64,000 bases of DNA from Nitrosospira multiformis (lineage in GTDB: Bacteria; Pseudomonadota; Gammaproteobacteria; Burkholderiales; Nitrosomonadaceae): positions 1,364,001 to 1,428,000 of the forward strand of contig NZ_FNKY01000001.1 of assembly GCF_900103165.1 (NCBI RefSeq). Reading direction: 5' to 3'. The first letter of the stretch is position 1. Each line of letters starts with the position of its first letter. The notes under the pieces are model-generated. The model did no database searches. It saw nothing but the letters and a program-made list of their open reading frames with translations, and had not been told where the DNA came from. Below, piece by piece: positions 1 through 4,898 of the stretch. The position numbers were made by a program, and so were the translations under genes.

Positions 1-401
1 ACCGAAAGGCCTCGTAGCTGACCTATCGAGGCAGCCACTCCTCCCTGGAGTGCCAATGCGGCAGTCAAGGTTGAGACGTAGTTCAACCCCAGAGGTCGAG
101 ATTTACCGCTGGCTCGTCCATGCACCGACATGAGCCCGCAAGCCGCCTGCATGATATTTTCAGTCACAGAAGCTTGCCTGGAGGTGTCATCCCATCTCGT
201 CACGCCGCATATGACAGGCGTGGTATGAGGAGTCTTGAATTCAAACGAGAGTACGGCATTGTCCGCCGAATTCTCGTTTGGAGCGATTTCCATGCCCAGT
301 GCGGTAGACTGGTAAATCAGCGAAGATGCGATGGCGGTAAAATCAGGCGCCGGGTTTTTTAATGCGCCCGCTATCACACAACCCGTTAATGTTCGATTCA
401 T
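1..401 (-). CDS. family III (CaiB/BaiF-like) CoA-transferase, N-terminal part, runs off the window
   Basis: Reading the minus strand from an ATG at 401 gives an uninterrupted frame of 133 residues to the window edge, so the 3' part of the gene is missing. It begins MNRTLTGCVIAGALKNPAPD. The stretch QAACGLMSVHGR followed by PLGLNYVSTLTAALALQG resembles the N-terminal half of class III CoA-transferases, where a similar Q-x-x-x-GLMS-x-(T/H)G segment precedes an A/G/L-rich helix. The conserved catalytic Asp of that family would lie beyond the visible part. It starts 39 nt after the sulfur-carrier gene on the same strand, so it is probably the next gene of that operon. The open frame is certain; the family call is from pattern memory. 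Confidence 0.5.
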   Translation of the reverse strand, partial: MNRTLTGCVIAGALKNPAPDFTAIASSLIYQSTALGMEIAPNENSADNAVLSFEFKTPHTTPVICGVTRWDDTSRQASVTENIMQAACGLMSVHGRASGKSRPLGLNYVSTLTAALALQGGVAASIGQLRGLS

Positions 402-440
402 GCTCATATTTCTTATATATGAAAAAGGGTTGGATTCCGT

Positions 441-713
441 TTATCCTCCGGCGACGGCGGGCAGAATGGTTAACGAATCGCCATCTCGCAGGCTTGTGGA
501 AAGACCGTTACCGAAACGAATGTCATCATCATTCACGTATATATTGATAAAGCGGTGCGCTTTTCCTTCGGTGATCAGTTTTTCCTTGACGCCCGGATAC
601 TGCTGTTCCATCTGTTCGATGACTTCAAGAACATTGAAACCGGAAATTTCGATACGCTTGTGATTGTTGGTGAGCGGTCTGAGTATGGTTGGGATATTCA
701 CGGTGATTGGCAT
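441..713 (-). CDS. ubiquitin-like sulfur carrier protein (MoaD/ThiS/CysO family)
   Basis: A 90-residue protein ending in Gly-Gly (PAVAGG). Proteins of this fold carry a C-terminal diglycine that an E1-like enzyme adenylates and converts to a thiocarboxylate, which then donates sulfur to a biosynthetic target. The middle contains LEVIEQMEQQYPG and the end has LRDGDSLTILPAVAGG, both typical of MoaD/CysO. The ATG at 713 has AAGGA about 7 nt upstream. It lies between a JAMM protease (which could trim residues added after the diglycine or release a product) and a CoA-transferase-like gene, all on one strand. The gene context argues against a molybdopterin or thiamine role and for a dedicated secondary-metabolite or cysteine-type thiolation route. 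Confidence 0.85.
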   Translation of the reverse strand: MPITVNIPTILRPLTNNHKRIEISGFNVLEVIEQMEQQYPGVKEKLITEGKAHRFINIYVNDDDIRFGNGLSTSLRDGDSLTILPAVAGG

Positions 714-829
714 ATTTATTCCTTTGGAAATTCATTCTTGAGAGAAACCAGAAATCGTGGATAAGATAGTAAGGCTGATAAAGATTTGACTTTGGTTAAC
801 GTCAAAGCTCGCTATGGAATCCGAGTTTC

Positions 830-1273
830 TTAAGCCACCATTGCCAATTCCCACCCTGTTTTGTATGACTCCAGTATTCTCACCCGCTCTTCGGTAACCA
901 TCCCGTCCGCGATGCGGAAACTGCGAATCTCTTCTCCATGCCTGGCGTCTGTTGGAATAATGACGTAATGGGAGCGGGGCTCGGTCGCATGCTTGACGTC
1001 GGTACGGCTCGGATAGGCTTGCGTACCGGTGTGCGAGTGATAGATGACGATCGGCTCTTCACCTCGCGCCTCCATCGTTCTCCAGACCTGCAGCTGCTGC
1101 TGCGGGTCGAACTCAAAGAAAGTCTCTGAGCGGGCCACATTCCGCATGGGGATCAGACGTAATGGAAGATTGGATCCTTCGAGGCCGGCGATGACGCCAC
1201 AGGTCTCGATGGGATGATCTTTGCGTGCTTGAGCAATCATTGCCTCAACAAGCTTAGCGTGTATGGTCAGCAT
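830..1273 (-). CDS. JAMM/MPN+ metalloprotease (Mov34 family, Mec/QbsD/PdtG-like)
   Basis: A 147-residue single-domain protein. The zinc-binding JAMM signature is visible as HSHTG near residue 79 followed by S and D in YPSRTDVKHA (H-x-H-x(n)-S-x-x-D); the upstream Glu is in IETCGVIAG. Small bacterial JAMM proteins next to ubiquitin-like sulfur carriers cleave the carrier C-terminus, either to expose diglycine or to release a carrier-bound amino acid, as Mec does for CysO-cysteine. It lies between the E1-like gene and the carrier gene. An AGGAG about 11 nt before the ATG supports the start. Family assignment is strong; the substrate is inferred from neighbours. Confidence 0.88.
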   Translation of the reverse strand: MLTIHAKLVEAMIAQARKDHPIETCGVIAGLEGSNLPLRLIPMRNVARSETFFEFDPQQQLQVWRTMEARGEEPIVIYHSHTGTQAYPSRTDVKHATEPRSHYVIIPTDARHGEEIRSFRIADGMVTEERVRILESYKTGWELAMVA

Positions 1274-1381
1274 ATTTTTTCAACTCCTGATATAAGTATG
1301 TTGATCGAAACGACAAAAAATCTCTGTCCTGCCAAAAAAAGCAATTTTTCAAAATCTGGTGAATGATGGGTAACCAGTCAA

Positions 1382-1419
1382 CGCGCTAGGTAGAGCAGGA
1401 CCGCGGTGGCAGAGTAAAC
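1382..1419. repeat. short two-part intergenic element, copy A
   Basis: CGCGCTAGGTA (1382-1392) followed after 15 nt by GGCAGAGTAAAC (1408-1419). The same pair, with a 12-nt gap and one substitution, recurs at 12815-12849 just before the CRISPR-Cas locus. Its function is unknown. Confidence 0.45.
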
Positions 1420-1465
1420 GGTTACGATGAAAAAATAGAAACGGTGATTTGCTTACACGCCTCGA

Positions 1466-2638
1466 CTAATAACGAGGTAGAGACCGATCCACATCTCTAA
1501 TCCACGCTAAAATCCCGCCATCCAGGCTTTTAACGTTTGTAAAGCCTTGCTTGCGCATCTCAAAGAGAACATCCTTGGAACGAACGCCCATCTTGCAATG
1601 AAGTACAATGAAATCCTCTTTATTGAATTGGGATAAGACATCCTCGGACATTATTTTATTTTTGGGGATATGATTGGCGCCTTCGATATGAACAATGTTC
1701 CATTCTTCGATTCCGCGCACATCGATCAACTGCAAGTCTGTGCCGCTTTCCCGCATTTTTTTTAGCTCCAATGCGCTGATTACCGGCACATCCGTTTTAC
1801 TATCAGTTACCGCCCGCTTTTGTCCGCAAAATTCCTGATAATCGATCAATCCGGTTATGGGAGTTCTCACGGGCGCCCGCCGTATCGGAATAAATCGATA
1901 GGTCATATCCAGCGCATCATAGACAGCAAGCCGGCCAAGCAGGGTATCACCCAGCCCGGTAATTAACTTAATAGCCTCTGTTGCCATGATTGCCCCGATC
2001 GAAGCACAGAGGATGCCTAATACTCCGCCCTCCGCGCATGAGGGCGCCATTTCGGATGGCGGCGGTTCGGGGTACAGATCACGATAGTTCAGACCGCCTC
2101 CACCCGGCGCATTTTCCCAAAAGACGGAAGCCTGCCCTTCGAATCGGAAGATGGATCCCCAGACATAGGGCTTTTCCGCAAGCACACAGGCATCGTTGAC
2201 AAGATAGCGCGTGGAGAAATTATCCGTTCCGTCCACAATCAGGTCATAACCCGAGATTATTTCTACGGCATTGGTTGCTTCGAGGCGTTCGTTATGAAGC
2301 TGAACGTGAACATAGGGATTTAACTCGTTGACCGAGTCTTTCGCGCTCCTGGATTTGAATCTGCCAATATCCGATTGTCCGTGAATGATCTGTCTTTGCA
2401 GATTGGATTCATCGACAATATCGAAGTCAATGATTCCCAAAGTCCCCACTCCGGCTGCCGCGAGATACAGGAGCACCGGGGACCCCAGACCCCCGGCGCC
2501 TATCACCAGGACTCTGCTGTTCTTGAGGCGTTGTTGTCCTTCCAGACCAACGTCGGGAATCAACAGATGACGGCTGTACCGAGAAATTTCATCGTTGGTC
2601 AAGTCTTCAGAAGGGTGTACTAGTGGTAGCAACTGCAT
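1466..2638 (-). CDS. E1-like adenylyltransferase with C-terminal rhodanese domain (MoeZ/PdtF-like)
   Basis: A 390-residue fusion. Residues 1 to about 260 are a MoeB/ThiF-type E1 domain with the nucleotide-binding loop VIGAGGLGSP, the ISRYSRHLLIPDVG entry motif and the conserved Cys in PSCAEGGVLG. The MoeB zinc CxxC pairs are not evident. Residues about 285-390 are a rhodanese domain with active-site Cys in HCKMGVRSKD. Such proteins adenylate the diglycine of a sulfur carrier and pass persulfide sulfur from the rhodanese Cys to form the thiocarboxylate. The ATG at 2638 follows a strong GGAGG at good spacing and is preferred to the TTG one codon upstream. It lies 101 nt after the TonB receptor stop and upstream of the JAMM and carrier genes. 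Confidence 0.9.
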   Translation of the reverse strand: MQLLPLVHPSEDLTNDEISRYSRHLLIPDVGLEGQQRLKNSRVLVIGAGGLGSPVLLYLAAAGVGTLGIIDFDIVDESNLQRQIIHGQSDIGRFKSRSAKDSVNELNPYVHVQLHNERLEATNAVEIISGYDLIVDGTDNFSTRYLVNDACVLAEKPYVWGSIFRFEGQASVFWENAPGGGGLNYRDLYPEPPPSEMAPSCAEGGVLGILCASIGAIMATEAIKLITGLGDTLLGRLAVYDALDMTYRFIPIRRAPVRTPITGLIDYQEFCGQKRAVTDSKTDVPVISALELKKMRESGTDLQLIDVRGIEEWNIVHIEGANHIPKNKIMSEDVLSQFNKEDFIVLHCKMGVRSKDVLFEMRKQGFTNVKSLDGGILAWIRDVDRSLPRY

Positions 2639-2739
2639 CAAAAACCTCCATGTTTAAAACATAAAACTCGTCATCAATACTCACCGGTCTCAACAGAGAT
2701 CCATTACCCACGCCTTGCTTTATAACCGTGCCTTCGTAT

Positions 2740-4698
2740 TCAGAAGCTCGCGGATAAGCCGATTTGACCCCAGCGTCCCGGCATGGGATACCCTGGGCGA
2801 TAGGCATAGTTGGCATCCAAAAGATTTTCCATGGCCACGAAAATTTCACCTCTTTTACCCAGCATCGGCATCCGGTGAGATACACGCGCATTCATGATTA
2901 CAAATGAATCGACTTCCTCGGTGTTGATGGCTCCCGCCGCGCGCGGGCGGCTCAGCGCCAAAATACTGGACTGATACTGAGTATCGACTGTCAGGCGGAT
3001 GGGCCCCATCTGCCCGTTTATACCCGCTGTGACCGCCCGCTTGGGTGTATAGGGCAAATTGTCGATGCTGGGGTCGAGCAGGGTCAGGCCGCCAAATACG
3101 GTCCAGTTCGGCGTGATATTTTGTCTGATTGCAATTTCGGCGCCGCGCATTACATAGGTACCGAGATTCAAAAACTGGGGAGGGGGCGGAACATTGGGCG
3201 GGAAGCCAAAGATATAGCGATTTTTCACCTGATCGATAAACAGGCTGATGTCGATCTGCGTTGATTCCATGGGAGTCAACTTCACGCCGACCTCGGCGTG
3301 ATTGAGCTCTTCCGCGGAGAGTTGCTTCCAGCTTTGTCCCAGCGGGGGAATCAGGGAGGAGAGAATCGGCGCATCCAAACCCGGATAATTGATACCGCGC
3401 GACACATTACCAAATACCGTAATCCTCTCGGATATCAGAGACAGGCCGGCGTGTGGCGAGGTTCTGGTTCGAAATTCGCTATGGTCATAAACGCGCATGC
3501 CGATTGCTGGCACGAGTGACCAGCCTTTGCCTAGATCGATCGTTTGGCTCAGTGCAATGTAGGGCGAAGTAACGCGAAAAGTCGGCGAATTAAAGCTGCC
3601 CTGCGGTGCTGGCGCCACGCGATTGAATCGCGAATCACCCGAGACCCAGTCGCTATCCAGTCCGGCAATAATAGCCCCACCTTTCCATAAAGAGAACTCT
3701 TCTTTCCAGCGAACGCCAGTCATCTGGAAATTATTGAACTGATTCCCTTCCAGTCCGGGTTGGTGCAGCCAGTTGCCTTCTCCTCTGTTGTGGTAAACAC
3801 GAAGGTCGCCACGCCAGTTACCATGACGATGCGATGCAAAAACAGAGACCATTCCTGCCTGGGTATTGTATTGCGGCGCCACAGCAGGTACTGGGAGACG
3901 ATTGTCACCCGGATCGCGTGCCTGGTTATTGACATAAAGAAAGCTCGTGCCAATCGACCAATTGGCATTCAGCCGCAAACCAATGCGTCCCATTACATTA
4001 TTCAATTCGCCGCTTGCATTGGGCCGGTGACCATTCGACTGGGCATGACCCTGTGCCAGCATGAAATCCACGTTACCCCGGCGGCCGACCAGATCCACCT
4101 GCTCGATGAAGGTGCTAAAGTAGCCCCCGGATATTCTTCCGTTGGCCTGAATACCATCCTCGATTGCGCGTTTGGTTTCCAGGTTGATCGAGGCAAAGTT
4201 GTTACCGTTGATTTGCGGCTGCGGACTTTTGTAGACAGTGATGGACTGCATGCCATTGACCGGTAACAGGTCGAGCAATGGATGATTCCATACTCCCATG
4301 TAAAACGGGATGCCATCAATGTAAGTCTTGATTTCACTGCCTGGACGGCTTACGCCCATTCCGCGAATATAGACGGCGCCGCCCTGATCGCCGCCAAAAC
4401 CGCCCACCGGGTTATAGCGTGATATTTGCACCCCGGGGGTGCGGCGAAGTGCCGTGGCCAGATCGAATGCATTCTGGTCGCGTAACTGGCTTTCGCTGAC
4501 CACTGCAGATGTGCTCGAAAACGGGTCGATGAGAACGCGATCAATAATCGGATTAGCCGTCACGACAACCGGAGATAGTGTAGTGCCCGGAACTGGAGTT
4601 GTACTCTGTGCCATTGAAAATCCTGAGAAGATCATTATTACGACGGCGGATGTTACGGTGACTGCGGTTTTTTTTCTTTTCATTTTCCTTATTTTCAT
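2740..4698 (-). CDS. TonB-dependent outer-membrane receptor
   Basis: A 652-residue protein with a basic, hydrophobic signal peptide ending near SGFSMAQ, a plug domain (VVVTANPI, then LATALRRTPGVQISRYNP and VYIRGMGVSRPG) and a C-terminal 22-strand barrel region ending in an aromatic residue (IGLSASF), the usual outer-membrane insertion signal. Such receptors import metal chelates, cobalamin or sugars using TonB energy. As first gene before the E1/JAMM/sulfur-carrier set it probably takes up the metallophore those genes help to make; this is inference. The start is uncertain: ATG 4698 is taken, ATG 4683 and TTG 4725 are in frame. Three tandem 17-bp repeats lie upstream. The ligand cannot be read from the sequence. 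Confidence 0.9.
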   Translation of the reverse strand: MKIRKMKRKKTAVTVTSAVVIMIFSGFSMAQSTTPVPGTTLSPVVVTANPIIDRVLIDPFSSTSAVVSESQLRDQNAFDLATALRRTPGVQISRYNPVGGFGGDQGGAVYIRGMGVSRPGSEIKTYIDGIPFYMGVWNHPLLDLLPVNGMQSITVYKSPQPQINGNNFASINLETKRAIEDGIQANGRISGGYFSTFIEQVDLVGRRGNVDFMLAQGHAQSNGHRPNASGELNNVMGRIGLRLNANWSIGTSFLYVNNQARDPGDNRLPVPAVAPQYNTQAGMVSVFASHRHGNWRGDLRVYHNRGEGNWLHQPGLEGNQFNNFQMTGVRWKEEFSLWKGGAIIAGLDSDWVSGDSRFNRVAPAPQGSFNSPTFRVTSPYIALSQTIDLGKGWSLVPAIGMRVYDHSEFRTRTSPHAGLSLISERITVFGNVSRGINYPGLDAPILSSLIPPLGQSWKQLSAEELNHAEVGVKLTPMESTQIDISLFIDQVKNRYIFGFPPNVPPPPQFLNLGTYVMRGAEIAIRQNITPNWTVFGGLTLLDPSIDNLPYTPKRAVTAGINGQMGPIRLTVDTQYQSSILALSRPRAAGAINTEEVDSFVIMNARVSHRMPMLGKRGEIFVAMENLLDANYAYRPGYPMPGRWGQIGLSASF

Positions 4699-4847
4699 TT
4701 GAGTGGCCGGTGTCAGTGAAGACAAGGCCAGATCGTGCCAGTGGCATATTATTTTCTCTAATCTTATGACAAAAGCTTGTGAGCTTATTGCAGGCGCTCG
4801 TATGACTGCTGGCGGAAAATATAATGGAAATCGATAAAATTAGGAAT

Positions 4848-4898
4848 GTGGCATATTGTCACACGCGGCAAGTTGTCGCATGTGTCATATTGCCGCAC
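4848..4898 (-). promoter_or_regulatory. three tandem 17-bp operator-like repeats upstream of the TonB receptor
   Basis: Read on the minus strand, 51 bp divide into three consecutive 17-mers: GTGCGGCAATATGACAC (4898-4882), ATGCGACAACTTGCCGC (4881-4865) and GTGTGACAATATGCCAC (4864-4848). The rough consensus is GTGCGACAATATGCCAC. The period of 17 bp and head-to-tail arrangement suit a regulator that binds direct repeats, as many AraC-family activators of siderophore genes do. The block ends about 150 nt before the receptor start. The regulator is not in the window. Confidence 0.6.

Follow-up and report, generated by a model that had tools for sequence, protein, structure and literature searches.

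At the left end of a 64,000-nucleotide stretch of Nitrosospira multiformis DNA (hereafter the window; C1:1364001-1428000 of a 3.5-Mb genome), a TonB-dependent receptor gene is followed by four genes whose products resemble sulfur-transfer enzymes. What does this locus make, and what would an ammonia oxidiser use the product for? A preliminary description of the window had read the genes as the core of the Pseudomonas pdt (pyridine-2,6-dithiocarboxylate, PDTC) locus and had proposed a new thio-metallophore. Our analysis partly supports this interpretation. We propose that with this locus Nitrosospira makes, exports and takes back a small metallophore of the thiocarboxylate kind, whose metal may be copper, and we put the probability of this reading at roughly 0.5. 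Its parts differ in strength. A thiocarboxylate pathway is very likely, judging from sequence; a metallophore role is likely, given the receptor, the transporter and the regulation; and copper as the main metal stands somewhat below an even chance. The reading is supported by the pdtFGHIJ-like order of the core genes and by the presence of the receptor in all 15 CoA-transferase-positive genomes among the 23 of the genus examined. It is also supported by an upstream palindromic box that recurs before HvfB/HvfC bufferin-type genes, a RegB/RegA-like pair, TonB-ExbB-ExbD genes, TonB receptors and, in this genome, a copper-type receptor.

The sulfur-transfer core

The five minus-strand frames are present in the order first described and match the families named for them (Table 1). 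The 14 kb to the left of the window (locus L002; window position = L002 position - 14000) carry nine annotated frames and complete a pdtFGHIJ-type set, which upholds the thiocarboxylate reading of the core. An AMP ligase and a transporter had been suggested among the genes to look for left of position 1; a ligase and an MFS transporter were found, together with an acyl-CoA-dehydrogenase-like (ACAD-like) flavoprotein. None of the nine frames was annotated as moaE, thiG or cysM. The partial frame at 1-401 is indeed the start of a CoA-transferase: the 135-aa fragment alone reaches 15.6 bits against CoA_transf_3, below the cut-off of 23.3, and the whole gene removes the doubt (Table 1). The E1-rhodanese, JAMM and GG-ending carrier genes are adjacent, and the gene for the CoA-transferase, which has the conserved Asp, overlaps the neighbouring ligase gene by 4 bp. 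The E1 scores 624 bits against NF005902 (cut-off 647), and the carrier query gave a single match in its own genome at E<=0.001.

To compare this arrangement with that of relatives, we used loci from a profile scan of genome contigs with a CoA-transferase alignment, keeping the best 80 of 309 relatives. Of 82 loci compared, 72 carried all five genes, for E1, JAMM, carrier, CoA-transferase and ligase. The pattern C..G.R was present in 72/72 E1 homologues and E...HxHx7SxxD in 66/67 JAMM homologues. The motif G[TLV]D[FY], with its catalytic-type Asp, was found in 76/77 called CoA-transferase homologues; in the one exception (L093) the gene is divided between two frames. Among 66 called carrier homologues, 50 end in GG and 16 have short, variable tails, which agrees with tail removal by a protease (QbsD, PMC6006322). 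Within Nitrosospira the CoA-transferase was found in 15 of 23 genomes, including this one, at 69-100% identity. Together with the 72 complete loci, this shows that the gene order is not due to chance.

At E<=1e-100 the CoA-transferase was detected in 35 of 125 Nitrosomonadaceae genomes, one match being partial, and in a class-wide sample of 369 genomes searched at E<=1e-50 this genome was the sole match. Among the 80 relatives kept, the nearest is that of Nitrosospira sp. NpAV (90%), followed by other Nitrosospira and Nitrosovibrio proteins, then by those of Nitrosomonas (56-68%), and then by those of Ralstonia, Hahella, Rugamonas, Pseudomonas and others. In a tree of CoA-transferase plus ligase, the Nitrosomonadaceae form one clade (support 1.0) with a 'Methylobacter' metagenome-assembled genome (MAG) as first branch. 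This locus (L072, Methylobacter sp. MAG E6) carries a Nitrosospira-like cluster with a 75% identical CoA-transferase and porin, hydrolase and amidohydrolase neighbours. It has no box of the kind described below upstream of E1, even at three mismatches, and represents either a misbinned contig or a transfer. Two further loci were unusual. In the methanotroph Methylosinus sp. Ce-a6 (L069) the sulfur core is accompanied by ACAD, MFS and amidohydrolase genes, which lie on the opposite side of E1, and by an RND pump nearby; its sole one-mismatch box match lies ~0.9 kb upstream of E1, within another called frame. In Nitrosomonas sp. MAG_42 (L031) the ligase match is split by ~8 kb between a 157-aa start and the remainder.

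We infer the reactions from these genes, their synteny and their conserved residues. Sulfur would arrive as a persulfide on the rhodanese domain; the E1 would adenylate the C-terminal glycine of the carrier and convert it to a thiocarboxylate, and the JAMM protease would free those carriers that bear a tail. The ligase would activate a carboxylic acid as acyl-AMP/CoA, and the two-domain CoA-transferase, via its Asp, would swap the activated oxygen for carrier sulfur to give the thioacid. The ACAD-like flavoprotein may desaturate or aromatise the scaffold. The MFS protein would export the product, and the metal complex would re-enter through the TonB receptor. As a speculation, the acid precursor could come from primary metabolism, for example as a lysine-pathway dihydropyridine, without the PigD/PigE-like pair found in many relatives.

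Table 1. Features of the cluster and its upstream region (coordinates are window positions unless prefixed L002)
Feature	Position	Strand	Family match
TonB-dependent outer-membrane receptor, 661 aa from TTG	2740..4725	-	Plug 6.5e-16
MoeZ/PdtF-like E1 with C-terminal rhodanese domain, 391 aa	1466..2641	-	ThiF 4.9e-78, rhodanese 1e-16
JAMM/JAB metalloprotease, PdtG-like, 147 aa	830..1273	-	Prok-JAB 2e-30
ThiS/MoaD-like sulfur carrier, PdtH-like, 90 aa, ends ...VAGG	441..713	-	ThiS 9e-15
Two-domain type III CoA-transferase, PdtI/PtmU4-like, first 135 aa in window	1..407 (frame 3-407)	-	CoA_transf_3
Whole CoA-transferase gene, 629 aa	L002:12518-14407	-	CoA_transf_3 210 bits, two stretches
AMP/CoA ligase	L002:10857-12521	-	AMP-binding 203.6 bits
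ACAD-like flavoprotein	L002:9655-10869	-	
MFS transporter	L002:8284-9591	-	
Alpha/beta hydrolase, divergent	L002:7402-8334	+	
Porin, alginate-export-type	L002:5914-7431	-	
GH88-like protein	L002:4755-5900	-	
Amidohydrolase	L002:3415-4734	-	
Three head-to-tail palindrome copies, TGYGRCA-N3-TGYCRCA, upstream of receptor gene	4847..4897		

For the receptor, a start at the ATG at 4698 is likelier than at the TTG at 4725. The GH88-like protein gave no Pfam match at E<=0.01. A profile of 29 GH88-like homologues matched the unsaturated glucuronyl hydrolase 2ahf (3e-30), and the AlphaFold model of the NpAV homologue (pLDDT 91.7) aligned with 2fv0 at a TM-score of 0.79-0.80. In 29/29 aligned homologues Ser or Ala occupies the position of D88, the residue given in the title of 2fv0, so the reaction may differ from that of unsaturated glucuronyl hydrolase; the other GH88 catalytic acid, which we take to be D149, is invariant. 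A working unsaturated glucuronidase was set aside on account of the D88 position, although the fold is clear. In three actinobacterial loci (L079, L083 and L091; Streptomyces and Streptantibioticus) a GH88-like gene lies near a thioacid cassette, which suggests a step in common.

The upstream box and its other sites

Alignment of 12 Nitrosospira upstream regions revealed tandem palindromes of 17 bp. Of the three copies in the window, that at 4847-4863 is exact and those at 4864-4880 and 4881-4897 have one mismatch each. The whole window holds 10 matches with up to two mismatches against 3.0 expected, a number reached by 0/100 shuffles. In 25/25 Nitrosomonadaceae loci examined, the 700 bp preceding the first cluster gene (the receptor in Nitrosospira, E1 in Nitrosomonas) contained a box with at most one mismatch; the loci are related and so do not count as 25 independent cases. 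These loci held 55 boxes in 17.5 kb of upstream DNA compared to 7 in the other 499.6 kb, and the shuffled rate was 0.0021 per 700 bp. The count left out L072 and a locus whose contig starts inside the CoA-transferase (L046). A box was also found near the receptor, E1 or a small secreted protein of family c17 in 4/11 other receptor/c17-type loci (L039, L062, L067 and L081) and in 0/25 loci of the PigD/PigE type. The new observation here is thus a conserved 17-bp palindrome upstream of the cluster in Nitrosomonadaceae that is not seen in PigD/PigE-type loci.

The genome has eight exact box sites, and the reversed-pattern control gave none; the 23 genomes of the genus have 4-13 exact sites each, with one control match in 4 of them. 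Besides the present cluster, the box precedes a pair resembling RegB (265 bits, cut-off 350) and RegA (192 bits, cut-off 250), a secreted EF-hand protein with bufferin-type genes for HvfB and HvfC (437 and 280 bits, both over the cut-off), and a BNR-like protein with a TonB receptor. It also precedes a thioredoxin-TonB-ExbB-ExbD group, named from sequence and with a sigma-factor-like gene on its other side, and another TonB receptor. Of the remaining two sites, one lies before the gene of a small secreted protein, with a RicR/CsoR-like gene (86 bits, cut-off 175) close by; the other lies before a PEP-CTERM gene, after which comes a TIGR01778-like copper receptor (344 bits, cut-off 472). At 4/8 sites, one of the genome's 14 Plug receptors lies within ~2.1 kb downstream of the box. 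In the bufferin-type operon (L108; genome C1:809500-817500), the secreted EF-hand protein bears GxCG-like motifs.

We rechecked this regulon on all exact sites of three other genomes (G006, G007 and G021; 20 regions). The box recurred in 3/3 before the RegBA, BNR-TonB, thioredoxin-TonB-ExbB and PEP-CTERM genes, and in 2/3 before the bufferin-type genes and the second TonB receptor. It preceded the present cluster in 2/3, G021 having no cluster. Two regions (L125 and L130) had no clear counterpart. A copper receptor as a fixed member of the regulon was rejected, as it follows the box in the N. multiformis genome only among those compared. The box yields a concrete regulon that is open to test.

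RegA/PrrA sites are palindromic and resemble GCGNC-N5-GNCGC. The box is similar to chromatin-immunoprecipitation sites of Rhodobacter capsulatus RegA, such as GTGACAATTTGTCCC at cydA (PMC5359404). RegA itself binds copper (PMC9147068), and in one study its sites could not be located in the promoters since the motif is degenerate (PMC5506826). By this sequence likeness, the RegA-like protein is a candidate binder of the box, which would couple transcription of the cluster to the TonB receptors, TonB-ExbB(D), the bufferin-type operon and the RegB/RegA-like pair.

The receptor and the possible role of the product

The receptor was detected in 18/23 Nitrosospira genomes: in 15/15 that have the CoA-transferase and in 3/8 that lack it, one of the three matches being partial. 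This association is significant when the related genomes are counted as independent (Fisher p = 0.0017). Receptor-only loci were found in G002 (a genome only 80% complete), G009 and G017 (L095-L097), and as a second copy in G003 (L098). In all four the amidohydrolase gene directly follows the receptor and the biosynthetic block is gone as one unit; L096 and L098 look decayed, and L096-L098 keep the box just upstream of the receptor. These loci fit two histories: synthesis was lost while uptake was kept, or biosynthetic genes were acquired next to an uptake pair.

Outside Nitrosospira, the receptors in relatives' loci are 44-65% identical. Ten such loci have a receptor of the same cluster, and in 9/10 a c17 gene adjoins it. 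The four c17 proteins tested (L039, L040, L055 and L067) all score 125-132 bits (cut-off 50) with NF033672, the model for a 'copper uptake system-associated protein'. DUF2946 genes occur in six receptor/copper-type loci, with 6/6 tested confirmed by Pfam. Neither the same-cluster receptor nor c17 nor DUF2946 was seen within the flanks examined of the 25 PigD/PigE-type loci. In the tree of CoA-transferase and ligase the receptor/copper-type loci do not group as a single clade, though several deep branches have low support, and the idea that they form one was set aside.

Several results weigh against a copper metallophore under a copper-type regulon. The window receptor is not a TIGR01778 copper receptor by NCBIfam comparison; its best match is the general siderophore-receptor model, at 85 bits (cut-off 223.5). 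No copper-specific protein was found at the locus itself, NF033672 being seen beside related receptors in other genera, and a search of the genome for NF033672 was empty, an absence weakly shown as control genomes were silent too. The copper-type receptor is absent from the 7 kb examined after the PEP-CTERM gene in G006 and G007 and is present as fragments in G021. The small secreted protein with the RicR/CsoR-like gene follows the box in 1/3 further genomes, and that gene is below its cut-off, as are the RegB-like and RegA-like proteins. No box lies just upstream of the receptor in the receptor-only locus L095. RegA acts mainly in redox control, and bufferins respond to copper excess, so the regulon is not purely one for scarcity. 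Moreover, PDTC and quinolobactin, the relatives that have been characterised, are classed as siderophores (PMC1779556).

This last point favours a conventional iron siderophore like PDTC or thioquinolobactin, either PDTC itself or a close analogue, whose copper links would be incidental. We consider this rather unlikely. The same core makes PDTC and quinolobactin (PMC1779556, PMC6006322), the ACAD, MFS and GH88-like genes are shared with Pseudomonas loci, and the best NCBIfam model of the receptor points the same way. However, a Fur consensus scan upstream of the receptor in 12 Nitrosospira loci gave at best 11-13/19 matches (12/19 in the window), which is no convincing Fur box, and Fur regulation was set aside. 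The locus also lacks the PigD/PigE-like pair, the AraC gene and the methyltransferase of pdt-type loci, and its box is common to bufferin-type genes and, in this genome, to copper-receptor genes.

A secreted thioacid that does not serve metal uptake (a signal, an antibiotic or a sulfur-transfer intermediate), with the receptor and amidohydrolase importing and degrading something else, appears improbable. Thioacid cassettes do also serve antibiotics, as in thioplatensimycin (PMC6006322), and the loci that keep receptor and amidohydrolase alone (L095-L098) suggest that this pair may work independently. Yet the receptor accompanies synthesis in 15/15 producers, and TonB receptors and TonB-ExbB(D) genes lie under the same box. 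A sulfur-carrier or protein-conjugation system (molybdenum cofactor, thiamine or SAMP-like) with chance neighbours is very improbable: the E1, JAMM and carrier families do overlap with SAMP/MoaD families, but ligase and two-domain CoA-transferase stand beside them in 72/82 loci and no moaE or thiG is among the annotated genes.

Ammonia oxidation depends on copper. If the product of the locus is a thiocarboxylate copper ligand, this would change the view of how nitrifiers get metal and would offer an explanation for the copper-type genes beside thioacid clusters of other genera, and the compound could affect nitrification. According to a 2022 review, Nitrosomonas europaea produces no siderophore and no chalkophore, and neither is tabulated for it; the review credits N. 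eutropha with an aerobactin pathway, and in its relevant passages and Table 1 names no chalkophore of ammonia-oxidising bacteria (PMC9693385). Siderophore synthesis genes are mentioned, unnamed, in a genome paper on N. communis (PMC4714114). The same cluster is present on a contig labelled N. europaea ATCC 25978 (L032), so the statement on N. europaea is not settled. In its boldest form, the proposal would be that the locus makes the first known chalkophore of an ammonia oxidiser, a non-peptide thiocarboxylate that supplies copper to ammonia monooxygenase under a RegB/RegA-type copper/redox switch and is stolen by some congeners left with the receptor after losing the pathway; we regard this combination as unlikely.

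Comparison with known systems

Iyer et al. (2006; Table 1, row 4a, PMC1779556) listed N. multiformis and N. europaea with a PdtF-G-H-I-J set as siderophore biosynthesis, that is, the same five-gene core in the same genus or family. In open-licence PMC text this was the sole account found that joins Nitrosospira or Nitrosomonas with thiocarboxylic terms, and its passages on these operons are silent on the wider operon, the box, the links to copper-type genes and the loci that have the receptor alone. The presence of the core in the genus and family is therefore not new, and of the thio-metallophore first suggested for an organism of this type, the thiocarboxylate part stands, the novelty of the core does not, and the metallophore role is our inference. 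The sulfur-transfer chemistry is not new either: Dong et al. (2018, PMC6006322) showed that PtmA3, an acyl-CoA synthetase, and PtmU4, a two-domain CoA-transferase, produce a thioacid together with sulfur-carrier proteins, and thioacid groups are reported from Actinobacteria, Betaproteobacteria and Gammaproteobacteria (PMC6006322). The ptmA3/ptmU4 cassette of thioplatensimycin likewise pairs an acyl-CoA synthetase with a two-domain type III CoA-transferase bearing the conserved Asp; unlike the locus here, it is actinobacterial and serves an antibiotic. No TonB receptor is expected in an actinobacterium.

In the Pseudomonas pdt locus the genes for E1-rhodanese, JAMM, carrier, CoA-transferase and ligase stand in the same order, and ACAD-like, MFS and GH88-like genes come next; these last three lie near the ligase in many proteobacterial loci. 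The match first drawn to this locus thus holds for the core but not beyond it. Loci of the pdt type have a PigD/PigE-like pair, a methyltransferase, a second MFS gene and an AraC gene, none of which is at the Nitrosospira locus, and the two also differ in the upstream box. Gene calling and clustering identified a PigD-like and/or PigE-like gene within the flanks examined in 25 loci, 17 of them named Pseudomonas; in the one that was scored (L041), PigD reached 662 bits (cut-off 950) and PigE 1429 bits (cut-off 850). By gene order only, which fits the string pdtCKPELMFGHIJON of Pseudomonas fluorescens F113 (PMC3570484, Table 2), these genes would be pdtL and pdtM. The N. multiformis genome gave no PigD match, the control being silent too, and PigE was searched at the locus only. 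Among the frames annotated in L002 and in the cluster part of the window there is no AraC-type regulator PdtC and no methyltransferase PdtP. The receptor cluster c25, represented at L058 and at four other loci, stayed separate from the window receptor, and the receptors of Pseudomonas PigD/PigE-type loci lie mostly beyond the flanks examined, which makes the comparison with PdtK-type receptors narrow. As the PigD/PigE-like pair of the 25 relatives is missing, the locus is not a plain PDTC locus.

The qbs locus for thioquinolobactin, compared from its published account, has the same sulfur-transfer core (PMC1779556); no kynurenine or xanthurenate genes of the qbs type are among the annotated neighbours here. 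MbnA, MbnB and MbnC gave no match at the locus, and the MbnB-family gene of this genome is the HvfB gene of the separate bufferin-type operon. Methanobactin, the chalkophore of methanotrophs, is made by a ribosomal peptide route, unlike the product proposed here, and the two are alike only in a possible role, the supply of copper to a copper-dependent monooxygenase.

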